A stretch of DNA of 64,000 nucleotides from Tridacna crocea (Eukaryota > Mollusca > Bivalvia > Cardiida > Cardiidae): assembly GCA_943736015.1 (NCBI GenBank), contig OX031069.1, forward strand, positions 44,488,728 through 44,552,727, in the 5' to 3' direction. The notes beneath the pieces were generated by a model. The model was given only the letters and a program-made list of their open reading frames with translations, had not been told where the DNA came from and ran no database searches. Each line of letters opens with the position of its first letter. The stretch's first letter is position 1. This document shows positions 12,770 to 38,109 of the stretch, in pieces. A program made the position numbers and the translations under genes.

Positions 12770-12995
12770 CATTAACTATTTGACATACAATCTCGAATTT
12801 TAATGAACCTGAGGTAAGATGACTTTTGAAAACATTTAGCGAAAAGGAGAAAGTGGTGCAGAGCACAATTTCCCACTTTCCCCACGGCTTTTTCTCTATC
12901 CCGTAGACGAAAAAAAAAGTTTTGTTAGCAATATCAAAGTCGACGTATGTAAATGCTTTGAATTTGATCAATTCTGAAATTTTGACATTTGGGCA
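12770..12995 (+). mobile_element. Degenerate A-family copy
   Basis: ACTTTTGAAAACATTTAGCG then GAAAAGGAGAAAGTGG, with a complementary CCCACTTTCCCC, and later GTAAATGCTTTGAATTTG match the family order. The apex is changed and both TTAA ends are lost. Confidence 0.4.
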
Positions 12996-13169
12996 ATTGT
13001 TTTTAGAACACAAAATAAGCGTTTCTTGTTCACAAATTATTTTTATAAACGTATCTAAATTGAAAGTAACACAGCTTCTGACTAGCTATAAGAAAAAAAA
13101 ACATGTTTGACCTATGTCCGCCCGATAACAAAGAAATACTGTAGAACACGCCGAAAAAAATAAGTATAT

Positions 13170-13377
13170 TGTTACGGGAGACCATTCCTTCCTGCATGGC
13201 ATATACTCCCGATTTAAATACAATACCTGGCTACTGCGTCAGGGAGATATCTCTTTGGCTCAGTGGTTAGGGTATTGGTCTTGTGTCCGGGAGTTCGGAG
13301 TTCGAATCCCGCTCCGATCCTTATTTCTGCCATGCATTTATTCATTTGTTTCTTTGTTACGGACTTCGTTCGTAAGA
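13170..13377 (+). repeat. TRIM 5' LTR with tRNA-like pol III promoter
   Basis: The LTR opens TGTTACGGGAGACC and closes TTCGTTCGTAAGA. A possible TATA box, GATTTAAATA, lies at 13211-13220. Downstream, TGGCTCAGTGG at 13256-13266 fits the pol III A box (TRGCNNAGYNGG). GTTCGAATC at 13300-13308 fits the B box (GWTCRANNC). Their spacing is about 33 bases, as in tRNA genes. The flanking sequence does not fold into a convincing full cloverleaf, so this is a tRNA-derived segment rather than a tRNA gene. Confidence 0.8.
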
Positions 13378-13395
13378 TGGGGGCTCGTCCGGGAT
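13378..13395 (+). promoter_or_regulatory. Primer-binding site, tRNA-Pro type
   Basis: TGGGGGCTCGTCCGGGAT starts at the first base after the LTR. It is the 18-base complement of the 3' end of tRNA-Pro including CCA, the same site used by many mammalian gammaretroviruses. A diverged copy at 20240-20257 keeps 17 of 18 bases. Confidence 0.9.
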
Positions 13396-13482
13396 TGGCC
13401 ATTGAGCCATTAGTCCCATTTGTTGTCCAAAATCGGACTTCCAGCCTAATAAGGCTTTGAGTCATCAATAAATGATGACTTT

Positions 13483-13493
13483 AAGAGGGGGTG
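13483..13493 (+). promoter_or_regulatory. Polypurine tract of the TRIM
   Basis: AAGAGGGGGTG lies immediately before the 3' LTR, where the plus-strand primer of an LTR element is expected. In the diverged copy the same place reads GAGATGGTGTG. Confidence 0.7.
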
Positions 13494-13701
13494 TGTTACG
13501 GGAGACCATTCCTTCCTGCATGGCATATACTCCCGATTTAAATACAATACCTGGCTACTGCGTCAGGGAGATATCTCTTTGGCTCAGTGGTTAGGGTATT
13601 GGTCTTGTGTCCGGGAGTTCGGAGTTCGAATCCCGCTCCGATCCTTATTTCTGCCATGCATTTATTCATTTGTTTCTTTGTTACGGACTTCGTTCGTAAG
13701 A
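13494..13701 (+). repeat. TRIM 3' LTR
   Basis: I see no differences from the 5' LTR across 208 bases. The A box is at 13580-13590 and the B box at 13624-13632. It is followed by ATATT. Confidence 0.85.
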
Positions 13702-13756
13702 ATATTCAAACGGTCTTGTATCGAATTAGATGCTTTTATTTTTTACACGCAAAGAT

Positions 13757-16663
13757 GGTGAATATAAACCTCAGGCAGCTAAGCACCAGTCACCATCGTT
13801 TTTGCGGACAGTGTAGATTAAGATAAGACTGCACACACACTGATCAACGTGAGCCGCGGACACCATGTGTTCTCGGTACACCAGATCGAATTTTCCATGG
13901 AAGAGACGGAGGTGGTGCAAGTAATTTCATTTTTATGGACCTGATTAACCTAGATAGAAATGTTGATTTACAGCAATGTCAAGACGAATGATTGACCTGT
14001 TTACACACATACTAGGGAATAATAATACCATTATATAAGCGAGCTGTGGCTTTATGAGCAACTGGGGTCTTGTTGTTTTGAAGTTTGTTGCCGATTTTCG
14101 GACAAAATCCCCTAACCATTGTTCATTTTACAAGTTTGTATGATAAGATAAATATATTCCCTAAAGGAATACAAAATTTCACTTAGAAATGTCCATCCAA
14201 AGCGAAGATATACGTTTTTTAATGGACCTGGGTAGAGGAAAATATGCTAACAAGACACCATTTTCTTTTTCAGAGTATGTACATGGACACCAGATCAGAA
14301 AAAGCTTGTGGTAACTGGACACCAACCTTTAAATCATCAATATTTCTGCCTGAAACTCGATGCATGGGCTGTATACGAAGACTATTTTTGTAAACATTAT
14401 GTCACTACGGTCCATTACCTGATAAAGAGCATGTTCAACGCAATTTCATTACTTGTAGCACTTGCTTTTTTGAAATATTTGCAATAATACGGCAATTTAC
14501 GAAGCAGACCTACGATGCTTGATCACAATTGACCGGTCATTGCCTCCAATGTTCGTACAAGACATGTTCTTTTTTTACAGCGTTTCAGTTTTATGAATGG
14601 CGTATTCACCCATTACCACGCTATCACGAGCTTTAATGTCCCTGGGAAAGATGGCTTCGAAAAACATTGTCTATAAAGAAAAACCCCTATTAACTAATAC
14701 AGAGTGTACATTATTTACCACATTTGGCCCGATTTTTAGTTTAAATAATTCTCAAATCAGCTTGGCCAACTGCCAGCGGGCTCTTAGAATGGCGTTCTAC
14801 CCTTCGTACATTTGCATGCGTGCGTTTGTTCGTCTACGCGTTTATTTCTAAAATTCTTATTTAATTGACTTCTCCTCAGAAACCACCAAGTGGAAATCAA
14901 CAAAATTCAACGTGGATGATTCCATAAATTTCTTTCGAGATAATTCGATCCTTTAAAAAAAGATGGCTTATGTGGATATGTGGAAGGGGCTTATTTTTCG
15001 TGTACGGCGCGTTGTGAAAATTGTAAAATTTGTCCTTTCAAAAGAACTCAATCACGAGATTGGCATTGGGTAGCTTTCTATCACATTCCTTCAATAAATT
15101 TTGATCTGCCGAAAAACATGGCTTTTGTTGGTGGGACTTATTTTCTCTTTGTGTCATAAAGCGGAAGTACTTGCAGCTCTTTAGAGAAATTCATTGATAA
15201 TACATATATGTAGATCTACATGTATTTCATAACACAGATGATCACTGATAATGTTTCATTTTATCCAATAAGCTGGGTGATCATGATATATGAGATATTA
15301 ATCTTTATTGTTACAAACTTACATAGTTCTTGGAAATGCAGCATTCAAAACGCGCCGTACACGGAAAATAAGCTCCTTCCACATAAGCCATCTTTTTTAA
15401 AGGATCGAAGTATCTCGAAAGGAATTTATGGAATCATCCACGTTGAATTTTGTTGATTTCCACTTGGTGGTTTCTGAGGAGAAGTCAATTAAATAAGAAT
15501 TTTAGAAATAAACGCGTAGACGAACAAACGCACGCATGTAAATGTACGAAGGGTAGAACGCCATTCTAAGAGCCCGCTGGCAGTTGGCCAAGCGGATTTG
15601 AAAATTATTTAAACTAAGAATCAGGCCAAATGTGGTAATGTACACTCTGTATTAGTTAATAGGGGTTTTTCTTTATAGACAATGTTTTTCGAAGCCATCT
15701 TTCCCAGGGACATTAAAGCTCGTGATTGCGCGGTAATGGGTGAATACGCCAATCATAAAACTGAAACGCTGTAAAAAAAGAACATGTCTTGTACGAACAT
15801 TGGAGGCAATGACTGGTCAATTGTGATCAAGCATCGTAGGTCTACTTCGAAAATTGCCGTATTATTGCAAATATTTCAAAAAAGCAAGTGCTACAAGTAA
15901 TGAAATTGCGTTGAACATGCTCTTTATCAGGTAATGGACCGTAGTGACATAATGTTTACAAAAATAGTCTTCATATACAGCCCATGCATCGAGTTTCAGG
16001 CAGAAATATTGATGATTTAAAGGTTGGTGTCCAGTTACCACAAGTTTCTGATCTGGTGTCCATGTACATACTCTGAAAATGAAAATGGTGTCTTGTTAGC
16101 ATATTTTCCTCTACCCAGGTCCATTCAAAAACGTATATCTTCGCTTTGGATGGACATTTCTAAGTGAAATTTTGTATTCCTTTAGGGAATATATTTATCT
16201 TATCATACAAACTTGTAAAATAAACAATGGTTAGGGGATTTTGTCCGAAAATCGGCAACAAACTTCAAAACAACAAGACCCCAGTTGCTCATAAAGCCAA
16301 AGCTCGCTTATATGATGGTATTATTATTCCCTAGTATGTGTGTAAACAGGTCAATCATTCGTCTTGACATTGCTGTAAATCAACATTTCTATCTAGGTTA
16401 ATCAGGTCCATACAAATGAAAATACTTACACCACCTCCGGTTCTTCCATGGAAAATTCGATCTGGTGTACCGAGAACACATAGTGTCCGCGGCTCACGTT
16501 GATCAGTGTGGCACAGAATGTGCAGTCTGATCTTGAATCTACACAGTTCGACACGGAGATATTTTTCCGGTTTAAAGTATAATTATCTTTGAAATACCAA
16601 CATCTGGGGTTTTACTATCGGCTTCAGTCAAAGTCTCATTTCAATTAAATAGCTGGAAAGGGC
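13757..16663 (+). mobile_element. D-family element split by a large foldback
   Basis: The left half (ACCTCAGGCAGCTAAGCACC, then TTTGCGGACAGTGTAG and GACTGCACA) ends at 13835. The right half (GCACAGAATGTGCAGTCTG, CTTGAATCTACAC, then GGTTTTACTATCGGCTTC and AGCTGGAAAGGGCTTAG) resumes at 16511. Joining the halves restores a normal D hairpin apex, so the 2675 bp between is an insertion. Confidence 0.75.
13836..16510. mobile_element. 2675-bp foldback transposon, 5-bp target duplication
   Basis: Two inverted arms of about 1.17 kb (13836-15013 and 15349-16510), nearly identical by eye, flank a loop of about 335 bp. The ends are CACACTGATCAACGTG and CACGTTGATCAGTGTG. GCACA is duplicated at 13831-13835 and 16511-16515. 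No transposase frame is present. The arms contain an A-family end (ACCCATTACCACGC...AAAACATTGT at about 14607-14672) and a stretch resembling C-family sequence (GCGTGCGTTTGTTCG onward at about 14818), so the element has captured older repeats. CAC...GTG ends with a 5-bp duplication recall Transib or ProtoRAG elements, but this is inference. Confidence 0.8.
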
Positions 16664-19405: not shown

Positions 19406-19610
19406 TGTTATGGGAGACCATTCCTTCATGCATAGCTTCATTCCGGTTTAATTACAATATCTAACAACTGCGTCAGGGATTTTCTTTTTTGGCTTAGTGG
19501 TTATGGTGTTGGCCTATCGTCCGGGAGTTCTAGTTTCGAATCATGCTCGGACCCTGTATACTATATGTATTTGTTCATTTTTTTCTTTGCTACGGACTTT
19601 TTTTGTTAGA
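19406..19610 (+). mobile_element. Solo LTR of the TRIM family
   Basis: It runs from TGTTATGGGAGACCATTCC to TTTTTTTGTTAGA, about 205 bp, diverged from the 13.2 kb LTRs. CAGT flanks it at 19402-19405 and 19611-19614, a clean 4-bp target duplication that supports the assigned LTR ends. Despite the divergence, a TGGCTTAGTGG A box and a TTTCGAATC B-box-like sequence remain. A solo LTR normally forms by recombination between the two LTRs of one insertion. Confidence 0.8.
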
Positions 19611-19826: not shown

Positions 19827-20450
19827 TGCTATAGGGTATCAGCCACGATGAAAGTGATGATGTAATTTACTGATTATTACCTGACGATTGCGTTGGGAAG
19901 TTCTCTTTATCTCAGTGGTTCTGGGACCGTATTCACCAACCATTCTTGAGAATATTCTTAATCTTATTCTCCAAGATTTTCTAAATTTGTAAGTAACACA
20001 ACTTCTGATTGGCTAAACCGAATGGTTCAGCCAAACCGAATGGTTTAGCCAATCAGATGCTGTTTTACTTACAAATGTAGAAAAAATTGTGTAGAATAAA
20101 ACAAAGAACGTTCTTAAGAATGGTTGGTGAATACGGGCCCTGGTGTTGGTATTTCGTCGGGGCGTTCTAGGTTCGAATCATGCTTGGTCTCATATACATT
20201 TGTTCATTTGTTTCTTTGTTACGGACTTTGTTCGTAGGATGGGAGCTCGTCCGGGATGGGCGATTCGGCCATTCATCCCGTTTGTTGTCCAAAAGCAGTC
20301 TTTCTGCCTTATTAGGCTTTGAATCATCAATAACCGATGACTTTGAGATGGTGTGTGATACTGGAGACCACTCCTTCATGCATGGCTTCATCCCGGTTTA
20401 AATACAATGCCTTTAGCACAGTGGTTACGATGTTGACCCTTCGTCCGGGC
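19827..20450 (+). mobile_element. Older TRIM copy broken by an H foldback
   Basis: The 5' LTR (19827-20239) is split by an inserted H element after CTCAGTGGTTCTGG. It resumes at TGGTGTTGGTATTTCGTC, AGGTTCGAATC, GTTACGGACTTTGTTCG. The interior (20240-20355) is 116 bp, as in the intact copy, with primer site TGGGAGCTCGTCCGGGAT. The 3' LTR starts at 20356 (TGATACTGGAGACC), has an internal deletion and is lost near 20450 (CGTCCGGGCC). B box GGTTCGAATC is intact at about 20171. Confidence 0.75.
19925..20140. mobile_element. H-family foldback inside the TRIM LTR
   Basis: This is the type copy. It has terminal inverted repeats GACCGTATTCACCAACC and GGTTGGTGAATACGGGCC, then inner arms TTCTTGAGAAT and ATTCTTAAGAA, and a central pair around TTGGCTAAACCGAATGG. 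A CTGG or TGG flanks each side, a possible 3- to 4-bp duplication. It is non-coding. Confidence 0.7.
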
Positions 20451-27032: not shown

Positions 27033-27673
27033 TGCGGGGTTTCGAACCAATGCGGACAAATATCCTCGTTCTTTGAGGTTTATAGTGGCCCTTCAGATTT
27101 TGGGATAAAAGATTCACAGAAATTTATAAAAATCTTCCTTTTATCCCCTAAGCCTTTTAATTTTCATTCATGAAAACCCGGTATTCGAAAGCCCTGCGCC
27201 AAGAAGAGAAATTGGAGATTTACTACGGCCTAAGTTGAAACAGATGGGAAACACAGTCATTCTTATATGAGCTACTCGCTCATTTACACACCGGAAATAC
27301 ACAAAGCTTCAAATATAGCGTCCGAAGAAGACATTATAGAATATGCACGTAATTACATGTTCGTTATGCTATGGAATTTAAGCGCCATTAGTTAAGTGCC
27401 GGTCACTTGACATTCCCACAATACTTGTTTTTATTTCTGGCGCGAAATCTAAAAACACCTGAAGAGGATACGTAGCCTTGTATTTGAGGGAACACCATAA
27501 CAAAAATGTTTTTGTAATTTTTTTATGATTTTTAATTATTGATGATTTGTATTTTTTTCCCATATGAATTTCGGTGATATATATATATTTCTAAATTTGT
27601 TGATAGTAAAAAAATAGATACCCACCTTTAAAAGACCAATACCATATCCACTGAGCTAAAGAGATATCTCCCA
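27033..27673 (-). mobile_element. TRIM LTR tRNA-like fragment split by a J element
   Basis: Read on the minus strand from 27673, GGGAGATATCTCTTTAGCTC, AGTGGATATGGTATTGGTC matches the TRIM LTR from before the A box to the anticodon-like region. After the J insertion, TTGGTTCGAAACCCCGC at about 27033-27052 may supply the B-box side. The first part is a clear LTR match; the second is plausible only. Confidence 0.5.
27080..27631 (+). mobile_element. J-family TTAA element
   Basis: About 550 bp, opening AGTGGCCCTTCAGATTTTGG and closing ATACCCACCTTTAA. The conserved interior includes GAGATTTACTACGGCC, CTCGCTCATTTACACACCGG, GTCCGAAGAAGACATTAT, GGCGCGAAATCTAAAAAC and GATATATATATA near the end. The copy at 59576 has TTAA at both ends, indicating a TTAA target. 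No protein is encoded; the frame at 27378-27563 is not shared by the other copies. Confidence 0.65.
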
Positions 27674-35910: not shown

Positions 35911-36546
35911 CTATAGATGCTGCATTGAGAGGTGATGTCTTTTCTGTAATTTGCTCTGGGTGTGCCATAGTTTTGGTTCTAATCTGTCCTTTATGATACT
36001 TTCTAAAATGGTAGAGAATTTGTTGGTGACGGTTATGCCTCTATAATTCTCTGGTAACATCTTACCTTTATTTGGCTTTGGTACTGGTGTAATATATCCA
36101 GACTTAACTTTCTTTGGGACATCTTGTTTTTGAAATATAAGCTTGATGGTATGAGCTATTAAGGGAAGTAACTCTTCTGGGCTGTTTTTAAAATGCTCTG
36201 CTGATATTCCTCCTGTGTCTGCAGCTTTACCTAATTTCATTTTCTTAATTGCCATATTTATCTCTCTGTTGCTTTGCACTTTGATTTCTAGTTCGGATAC
36301 ACTTTCTATTTTCTCTGTGATGTCATTCCGAAGCTTTGCAAGTTCTAATTTTTCAGTTTTAAAGTTACCATAGTCTTTAATGCAATATAGGTCAAAGAAG
36401 TAATCTTTCCATCCTCCCAGAACAATGTCTTGGGTTTGTTGTTCTTTGTTCCTAAATATCATAGCACTAATACCAGTTTTGTTTTTCCGTTGGTTCTGCA
36501 CAAGCCTGTGAAATAGTTTTGTATCATCTTTAGAGGTCTTCATCAT
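35911..36546 (-). pseudogene. LINE reverse transcriptase N-terminal segment (211 codons)
   Basis: This is the longest open frame in the window. It holds a linker (TKLFHRLVQNQRKNKTG, WKDYFFDLY), the fingers motif AIKKMKLGKAADTGG, and TPVPKPNKGKMLPENYRG, ITVTNKFSTILESIIKDRL. It stops after a frameshift; the next conserved block (SPLNAASIVSQTIEEYS, VNLVTK) lies in another frame at about 35820-35940, with motif A degraded. It is a fragment of the LINE ORF2, not a host gene. Confidence 0.75.
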
Positions 36547-36939
36547 ATTATCAAAGTATTTGTTATTTTTTGATACTATAGCTCTTCTTTGTGCCCTACG
36601 CAGTTTTTTTTTGCCATACGTGATTCATTTTTCAACCTGACATTTGTGTGTCTAATTTCCAATCATGGTAAGCTTGTTTTTGGAAATTTAAGATATGAGA
36701 GTGATCTCAAAATTCCAAATACCCTTTCCAATTGTACGGATTTTTTTTTTTTCAAATATCCGGGAATAGATTGCTGGGCAGCCTGATGTAAGGTTTTCCC
36801 AAGTAGTTCTAAAGTTTCTGTAGAGCTCTGTACTTTCTTCAGGTTTTTCTGTGAAACCTTTGCTGAATCACATTTACGCCGGTGCGGTTTTTTTTATTAT
36901 TGTTTTCTTTTGTTGGTCTTTTTTAATCAAGTTTCTATC

Positions 36940-37560
36940 TAATTCTGCTATGATCAGACTGTGATCAGAGATATTATGTATATCCATATCTAAAGTTTGT
37001 GTTGTTGTAGATTACCTCTATGTAATATATTATCTATTTGTGAAGTGTATCTCCCATTGTGGTGATAAACAGTATCCTCTATTGGGTAGTTCTTAGCCAT
37101 TTGGAGCTAACTGGTCTTCACAAATTCTAGGAATAAATTATCTCTACTTCTGTCTATTCTGTGTAGTGATGCATTAAAATCATCACATACGATGATATCA
37201 TTTTCTCTGCCATAGATTTTTTCTGCCATAGATTTTACAAATTTGCTCTTGCTCTGCAAGAATCTCTTTATATTCCTCATCATTTCTGGTTGCTTTTGAC
37301 GGCATACAGATATTTGTTAGACTTTTTCTCACAGTTTATTGTCACTACATTGATTCTATTTCCTCTCCCTGTATGGAACTTAACTGAGTGGTCTATGTTC
37401 CAGAAAGTGGCAACACCTCCATAACCCTTTCCCATTACAAAGTTGATGGAGTCATTTTCATCATCCACTGACTTAGCTGTATATTCATGGTTGGGAGAGA
37501 GTTCAGTGAGTTTGTATTTTTCAAAAGAATATAACCAATGTTCTTGCATTACTATTATGT
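36940..37560 (-). pseudogene. LINE AP-endonuclease segment
   Basis: Minus-strand 37549-37280 encodes MQEHWLYSFEKYKLTE, SINFVMGKGYGGVATFW, and VVTINCEKKSNKYLYAV. After a frame change, NDIIVCDDFNASLHRI and NGRYTSQIDNILHRG follow, then SLITV with the SDH equivalent. QEHW, DFNA, SxID and SDH are the expected AP-endonuclease markers in order. At least two stops and one frameshift are visible. Confidence 0.7.
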
Positions 37561-38109
37561 CAAATATACTCAGAACTTTCCTGAGATATACCTGATTGGT
37601 AAGAACATTTTGGATATTAATTGGTCCTATGAGGATCTTCTTATGTGTCTTGCTGTTTGTTCGCTTGCTCGGCCATGGCCCGAAAAATGTTCTTTGCGGT
37701 TTTCTTTATTGTTCTGGTCTGTACATTGATCTAATTTTACTACACTATCGCTACGAGTTTGTTCTTGTAGAATACTTTTTATTTCTTGAATATGTAATTG
37801 TAGACTACTCTCATCATTACTTGGCTTTTGATTATGCTGTCTCTGTAGAGTGTCTAAATTTTGGGGTATTTCATATTTGACTCGTATCTTATCTCTGCTG
37901 GGTTCACCATACACACTATTGACGGTAGATACTTCATTAATGTTTCTCTATGTGTATCACAGAACGGTGTTTTACTATGCTTAGTTTCGTGGGGATTACT
38001 TGTTTTAAGGTTGTTCCTGGGGCCTCTTTGAGCCATCTGTTTTGAGTGTTTCTGTTGCACTATTTGCTTTTGATTATCCAATCTTCCATGCCCGCTCCTG
38101 CTGGTTTTA

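Follow-up and report, generated by a model that had tools for sequence, protein, structure and literature searches.

The 64-kb window analysed here, i.e. the whole stretch of giant clam DNA that was read, contains a 532 bp element with two LTRs that are 100% identical to each other, and the element is bordered by the duplication ATAT at both ends (Table 1). The primer-binding site (PBS) TGGGGGCTCGTCCGGGAT, which we take to be the complement of the tRNA-Pro 3′ end, is followed by a short inner part that ends in a polypurine tract (PPT), and no open frame of at least 120 aa in the stop-to-stop ORF list overlaps the element. The preliminary description had claimed an identical pair of 208 bp LTRs, an 18-base tRNA-Pro PBS, a purine tract, the ATAT repeat, a length of 532 bp and the lack of a protein, all of which were reproduced; the A and B boxes that it placed inside each LTR with a gap of 33 bases were found in both LTRs. 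Its reading of the element as a complete TRIM is supported by the LTR-PBS-PPT-LTR anatomy and the 4-bp duplications.

Table 1 Features of the TRIM element and of related sequences in the 64-kb window.
Feature	Position	Strand	Basis
Target site duplication, left (ATAT)	13166..13169	.	Sequence inspection
5′ LTR, 208 bp	13170..13377	+	LTR-to-LTR alignment
TATA-like TTTAAATA, LTR 44-51, ~30 bases upstream of the inferred RNA start	13213..13220	+	Motif position; identity in 36 LTRs
Palindrome GAGATATCTC, LTR 75-84, turn-around point of palindromic insertions	13244..13253	+	Palindrome and junction scans
tRNA-like module, approximate extent; tRNA position 1 would be 13249	13249..13318	+	Inspection
A box TGGCTCAGTGG (starts at LTR 87)	13256..13266	+	Motif match
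B box GTTCGAATC, 33 bases after the A box	13300..13308	+	Motif match
PBS TGGGGGCTCGTCCGGGAT, adjoins the 5′ LTR directly	13378..13395	+	Complementarity to tRNA-Pro 3′ end
Internal hairpin AGTCATCA-ATAAA-TGATGACT; AATAAA from 13467	13460..13480	+	Palindrome/hairpin search
Polypurine tract AAGAGGGGG	13483..13491	+	Inspection
3′ LTR, same as 5′ LTR; A box 13580-13590, B box 13624-13632	13494..13701	+	Alignment
Target site duplication, right (ATAT)	13702..13705	.	Inspection
Solo LTR of this family, older (75%), with CAGT/CAGT flanks (by eye)	19406..19610	+	Alignment
Incomplete older copy (79%) comprising the end of an LTR, the PBS, the inner part and the beginning of a 3′ LTR	20142..20412	+	Alignment
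Fragment matching LTR 73-113 (93%), then CTTTTAAA of the long-head subtype	27632..27672	-	Alignment

None of 5000 dinucleotide-shuffled versions of the LTR contained a degenerate pattern of the A and B boxes, and the pattern turned up once when the 64-kb window was shuffled 100 times (one strand). ARAGORN reported 0 tRNA genes in the window, and an Rfam scan of 12900-14000 with E values up to 10 gave no tRNA and no 5S match; its sole match there, HIV-1_SL3, was weak, far under the cut-off and outside the element. The module is therefore tRNA-like and not an intact tRNA gene. The hairpin in the inner part has a perfect 8-bp stem and the loop ATAAA, and it is changed in a copy of the second subtype (L082).

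Older relics of the same family are present elsewhere in the window. For the capture of a SINE head, a possible origin according to the preliminary description, the fragment at 27632-27672 was considered as the source; only 41 bases match, and it would fit a piece of a long-head LTR instead. An old LTR of this family contains, at ~19923-20140, a MITE-like inverted repeat that has GGGACCGTATTCACCAACC at one end and its near-complement at the other. On the minus strand, frames at 35911-36624 and 37280-37705 resemble, by eye, parts of the reverse transcriptase and the endonuclease of a LINE; neither of these two ORFs gave a Pfam match at 1e-3.

Copies, LTR subtypes and a candidate helper

The genome searched (G000, 1.05 Gb, with the window on C14) contains 2790 exact PBS sites and 4548 exact heads of the form TTTGGCTCAGTGG-N25-55-GTTCGAATC, with 0 matches in each reversed control. 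All 40 scored copies, out of 1395 candidates, were full-length and 98-100% identical, and the TRIM is present in the giant clam genome in thousands of copies. To its own reading the preliminary description had opposed two possible observations, a lack of flanking duplications and a tRNA-like part absent from most LTRs; neither was borne out. Perfect 4-bp duplications flank 20 of the 21 top-ranked full copies (L001, L009-L028; the duplication of L026 is 5 bp by eye). Sampled in order of position, 30 PBS loci on C1 (L059-L088, among which L079/L080 and L084/L085 overlap) comprised 21 loci of the main subtype, two of a second subtype (L062, L082) and seven belonging to another element. Parsing this sample without partial and overlapping loci left 18 complete non-redundant copies; 15 had perfect 4-bp duplications and seven had identical outer LTRs, and the three misses were an old copy (L063), a one-base difference (L065) and a copy parsed from within an array (L079). 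The B box was found in 36 and the A box in 32 of the 38 position-ordered LTR starts.

Copies, solo LTRs and 4-bp duplications, the three things that the preliminary description had proposed to count, were all found in this genome. Among the 100 heads listed of the 4548, 58 clusters were formed by 31 pairs, 22 singles and 5 larger groups. All four short-head singles that were fetched are solo LTRs with 4-bp duplications (GAGG, CTTT, CTGA, TGTT). The five fetched long-head singles, read by eye, include a solo LTR with TTAT (L093) and one with the 5-bp ATAAT (L094), the others being partial or complex (L092, L096, L097). Tandem arrays exist as well, such as a five-LTR array enclosed by a single duplication (L037/L038). 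At the LTR/PBS junction of an array copy lies a short element with long inverted ends (L034:2098-2365).

Two types of head can be told apart among the heads listed. Nearly all short heads measure 55-56 bases from TTTGG to GAATC and occur in two main forms, GGCTTTGCG...GTTCGG and GGTCTTGTG...GTTCCGG, with intermediates. The long heads (n = 8) measure 75-76 bases, contain a potentially self-pairing stretch like CCTCGAAAAACGAGG and mostly carry CTTTTAA, which presumably resembles the anticodon arm of tRNA-Lys(TTT). In the legend of Figure 2d of Kojima, molluscan Helenus elements are aligned with tRNA-Lys-TTT (PMC10886601). ARAGORN found 0 tRNA genes at the 10 loci scanned, long-head loci included.

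We compared 36 full-length LTR alignments, taken from position-ordered loci, fetched single-head loci and relics in the window, with the window LTR. Mean identity was 0.936 overall, 0.994 in the B box, 0.982 in the A box and 0.890 in the stretch between the two boxes, and the TATA-like TTTAAATA was conserved as strongly as the boxes (0.986). The B box value was reached by 4 of 200 nine-base windows and the A box value by 19 of 198 eleven-base windows; with the 31 LTRs of at least 90% identity the contrast was weaker (15 of 200 and 46 of 198, respectively). The A and B boxes are under constraint above the rest of the LTR, with a weaker contrast in younger LTRs. The palindrome GAGATATCTC was exact in 30 of 38 LTR starts.

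Runs of four T residues (T4), absent from the LTR and the inner part of the window copy despite 33% T, were likewise missing from 17 of the 18 complete position-ordered copies and from 20 of the 21 top-ranked copies. For the window copy this absence had a P of 0.0096 in dinucleotide shuffles and of 0.054 in mononucleotide shuffles, with 0.62 for the A4 control, and the first T4 downstream is at 13734, in the flank. By eye, T4 is present in seven of the eight listed long heads; T4 avoidance is thus not general.

Common to the seven PBS loci of the position-ordered sample that belong to another element are an LTR terminus unlike that of the TRIM and a gag reading frame containing a CCHC knuckle. 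Two such Gypsy elements on C1 (L090 and L091) are recent copies of 6229 and 6320 bp in this bivalve genome, each with identical 561-bp LTRs and with the duplications ACAT and ATGA. A single frame of 1597 aa in L091 encodes, according to Pfam, SCAN, followed by an integrase (H2C2, rve, p58_C) and then by RVT_1 and RNase H. This order of integrase before reverse transcriptase is that of Gmr1-type Gypsy elements. Both copies have 21 bases at the PBS in common with the TRIM, 18 of which are explained by the common primer, as well as 4-bp duplications, a G-rich PPT and a similar LTR start (TGTTATG versus TGTTACG in the TRIM). However, 5 bases separate their PBS from the LTR, against 0 in the TRIM, and the LTRs lack BLAST similarity to those of the TRIM. 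Genome-wide, 1973 of the 2790 PBS sites are preceded by AAGA and 31 have a base other than A at -3. No Gypsy element with the LTR end of the TRIM itself was found among the 23 TRIM-type loci of the position-ordered sample. L090 and L091 are put forward as a co-resident helper candidate with the same PBS and duplication length and a different PBS offset.

Relation to Helenus and other short elements

The preliminary description knew of no described equivalent of this element; such elements were described in 2024 as Helenus, TRIMs with a tRNA-like LTR, with 51 families from pteriomorph bivalves (Kojima 2024, PMC10886601). By its sequence the element fits Helenus in every structural feature tested, an assignment that rests on structure, with the named families compared by description. 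Here as in Helenus, tRNA-like A and B boxes lie in the LTR, a PBS adjoining the 5′ LTR and a PPT are present, animal copies have 4-bp duplications, and solo LTRs occur; tRNA-Pro is among the primers of bivalve families, tandem arrays are noted for one zebrafish family, and the length of 532 bp, with two LTRs and no protein, falls within the range of 311-1263 bp (PMC10886601). For Helenus the tRNA-like part is described as unrelated to the PBS primer; here, by eye, the CGGGATT at the PBS edge recurs on the opposite strand of the B-box region. For molluscs, Table 1 of the Helenus paper lists Pteriomorphia only, in five bivalve orders (PMC10886601), whereas Tridacna belongs to the Cardiidae within the Euheterodonta and is thus a heterodont host. 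COX1 on C31, translated with code 5, is 94% identical over 99% to that of Tridacna derasa, followed by Lymnocardiinae at 80%. To explain Helenus beyond Pteriomorphia, one would need an origin further back in the molluscs, several separate origins or horizontal transfer. Gypsy has been inferred as the helper of Helenus in animals, and it was stated that a pol III function cannot be concluded without experimental validation (PMC10886601). The abstract, introduction, results, discussion, legends and tables of that paper contain no mention of the RNA start or of palindromic insertions, and in a term search 'termination', 'polyadenylation' and 'TTTT' were absent, while 'terminator' was used for Cassandra only (PMC10886601). 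New relative to these parts of the paper are the heterodont host, the co-resident helper candidate and the palindromes (PMC10886601).

The preliminary description had proposed a tRNA-type counterpart of the plant TRIM Cassandra in a mollusc, and this proposal is supported by the boxes in the LTR and the TRIM anatomy. Cassandra likewise has the promoter of a small RNA gene in its LTR and forms arrays (PMC7215508), but that promoter is 5S-type instead of tRNA-type. A Cassandra-like 5S promoter was rejected for the element, since the Rfam scan (E values up to 10) gave no 5S match. Transcripts of Cassandra reportedly begin and terminate inside the 5S parts of the two LTRs (PMC10886601), whereas the LTR of the window copy lacks T4. 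Biv-TRIM, which has been reported from Cerastoderma edule, also a member of the Cardiidae, resembles the element in its bivalve host, terminal repeats of 202-218 bp, solo repeats and tandem arrays (Satovic 2019, PMC6934838). It differs in an inner domain of 77-80 bp, the lack of a clear PBS and a PPT that is mostly GGGGAGA (PMC6934838), compared with 116 bp, a perfect PBS and AAGAGGGGG here. On this anatomy, and set apart by description, membership of biv-TRIM was rejected.

Palindromic insertions and their origin

At two loci (L061, L098) we noticed LTR pieces arranged head to head that turn at GAGATATCTC (LTR 75-84). A junction scan of the genome gave 52 forward and 52 reverse matches and 0 in the reversed control; the 100 of these 104 matches that were listed correspond to at least 53 places, at 46 of which (46/53, by eye) the junction has a length of 36 bases. 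The insertions span about LTR 75-208 in each arm. Two other palindromes of the LTR, which also contains ATGCAT (LTR 163-168), served as controls for the turn-around. Genome-wide, 0 head-to-head junctions were found at the U3 palindrome ATTTAAAT (LTR 43-50), which is 8 bases long and varies between subtypes, and 0 at the B-box palindrome TTCGAA (LTR 132-137), which has 6 bases, both being shorter than GAGATATCTC.

The first 20 places of the junction list were read in detail by eye. Twelve have the structure [reverse LTR 208-~80][LTR ~80-208] without an inner part (L098, which contains an extra head, L103, L106, L108, L109, L110, L114, L115, L116, L118, L119, L120). Together with L061 and L104, these make 14 of 20 with U5-type ends on both sides, the left end of L109 being degenerate; L117 has a U3 end on its left side. 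Perfect 4-bp duplications surround the whole palindrome in 13 of the 20, by eye: L061 TTTT, L098 GTAT, L103 AGAC, L104 TTGT, L108 CAAG, L110 CTAC, L114 ATCT, L115 GTGA, L116 CTAC, L117 CTTT, L118 ATCG, L119 TCAT and L120 CCCA, where L061, L104, L108 and L110 were read allowing small changes at the LTR ends. By chance, a 4-base match is expected in ~1 in 256 cases each. Among the seven palindromes without a perfect duplication, L106 and L109 agree in three of the four bases, and L105, L107, L111, L112 and L113 lie in arrays or have no readable duplication.

For 15 of the 20 palindromes we compared the two arms. They are identical in L114 and L117, differ once in L119 and at 3-5 places in L061, L103 and L104. 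Arms of different form were found in L120 (all 4 of 4 head-diagnostic places) and L116 (3 of 4), L118 differs at one diagnostic place only, and L110 joins different subtypes, with 44 mismatches between its arms. In L098, L106, L108, L109 and L115, indels, trimming or age make the comparison uninformative. Further irregularities were seen at two loci. To the left of the palindrome in L117, LTR 1-142 is joined to the first PBS bases and a reversed U5 through a common CGGGATT, resembling a template switch, and at L098:369-592 the tRNA-like unit is doubled in tandem with a spacing of 68 bases inside the palindromic insertion.

The palindromes are best read as integrated, paired strong-stop cDNAs of an RNA with its 5′ end at LTR 75-79. 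For such pairing, the 3′ end of the cDNA must sit at or a few bases past LTR 75, which places the RNA 5′ end there, 8-12 bases before the A box, and the U5 terminus at each end of the palindrome would make it an integrase substrate. The palindrome GAGATATCTC may itself favour the turn-around, and the reading of the start site is not independent of it. A chromosomal origin by inversion or recombination of neighbouring LTRs, rather than by reverse transcription, would render the palindromes uninformative on the RNA start. Copies are numerous and arrays exist, and L111 and L112 lie ~3 kb apart as parts of arrays, yet the U5 ends on both sides in 14 of 20, the perfect duplications round the whole structure in 13 of 20, the single length of 46 of the 53 listed junctions and the 0 junctions at the two other LTR palindromes make this very unlikely. 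A snap-back of single molecules, in which one strong-stop strand primes itself instead of being joined to another, appears doubtful but possible: self-priming is known for the minus strong-stop DNA of HIV-1 (PMC4668388), and it would suit the identical or nearly identical arms of L114, L117 and L119, but not the form-diagnostic differences in L120 and L116 or the different subtypes in L110. Such mixed arms suggest that two RNAs were present within one particle; ordinary copies can also combine two LTR forms (C1:12135835 and 12136157), so conversion after insertion could have mixed the arms and is a possible alternative. In its fullest form, the paired-cDNA reading would make the palindromes genomic fossils of a new class. 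They would derive from strong-stop cDNAs of two different co-packaged TRIM RNAs, joined through their self-complementary start and inserted by integrase at two U5 ends; the mobilised Helenus RNA would start 8-12 bases before the A box as by pol III, and a Gypsy helper would package pol III-made RNAs in mixed pairs. We give this complete version an even chance of being correct.

Start of the mobilised RNA and a proposed cycle

On tRNA-like promoters pol III starts ~8-12 bases upstream of the A box, and the start deduced from the palindromes (LTR 75-79) fits this distance. Use of the tRNA-like LTR by pol III, as expected for Helenus/TRIMp3, is putative here, with indirect support from the palindromes. 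Alternatively, pol II could produce the mobilised RNA from the TATA-like box (LTR 44-51), in which case the tRNA-like boxes would be a relic or have another role. TTTAAATA, 29-36 bases upstream of LTR 80 and conserved at 0.986, could set the same start, and the LTR of the candidate Gypsy helper contains AATAAA and no A and B boxes with the patterns used. We nevertheless consider pol II unlikely, given that the A and B boxes are conserved beyond the rest of the LTR, that short heads are depleted of T4, and that AATAAA followed by GGGGGTGTG in the inner part, just upstream of the 3′ LTR, would tend to stop a transcript before the second R. Mobilisation by a LINE, as of a SINE with direct-repeat-like ends, could account for a tRNA-like head with A and B boxes, but an LTR-PBS-PPT-LTR structure flanked by 4-bp duplications, with solo LTRs and with tandem arrays that share LTRs, makes it scarcely credible. 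A tRNA-derived SINE was rejected on structure (LTRs present, 4-bp duplications).

With pol III as the preferred polymerase, the window probably holds an intact young Helenus-type TRIM copy with the following pol III/Gypsy/strong-stop cycle. The A and B boxes, perhaps with the TATA-like motif, would recruit pol III to the 5′ LTR, from where it would start at LTR 75-79 and transcribe both the inner part and the 3′ LTR. Since the common short-head subtype lacks a T4 stop, transcription would run on to a terminator in flanking DNA, the first T4 for the window copy being at 13734. As the anatomy suggests, Gag and reverse transcriptase of Gypsy would then package the RNA and prime it with tRNA-Pro. 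The palindromes suggest that the minus strong-stop cDNA would be extended from the PBS to the RNA 5′ end, and that two such cDNAs in one particle would sometimes pair via their GAGATATCTC 3′ ends and extend each other, giving a palindrome with two U5 ends. The 4-bp target duplications round normal copies and palindromes show insertion of the kind made by an integrase, and solo LTRs and tandem arrays occur.

If this holds, the palindromes would reveal the start of the mobilised RNA without RNA data and make it readable, for tRNA-like LTRs, from assembled genomes; the same test is applicable to other Helenus and to Cassandra families. A literature search covering titles and the beginnings of abstracts of the entries listed, with few subscription journals, met no mention of palindromic strong-stop insertions or of Helenus in Tridacna. 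One longer junction of 49 bases was observed at C15:4291391-4291439, where the centre is TGACTCA, which would suit an RNA start lying a few bases further upstream.
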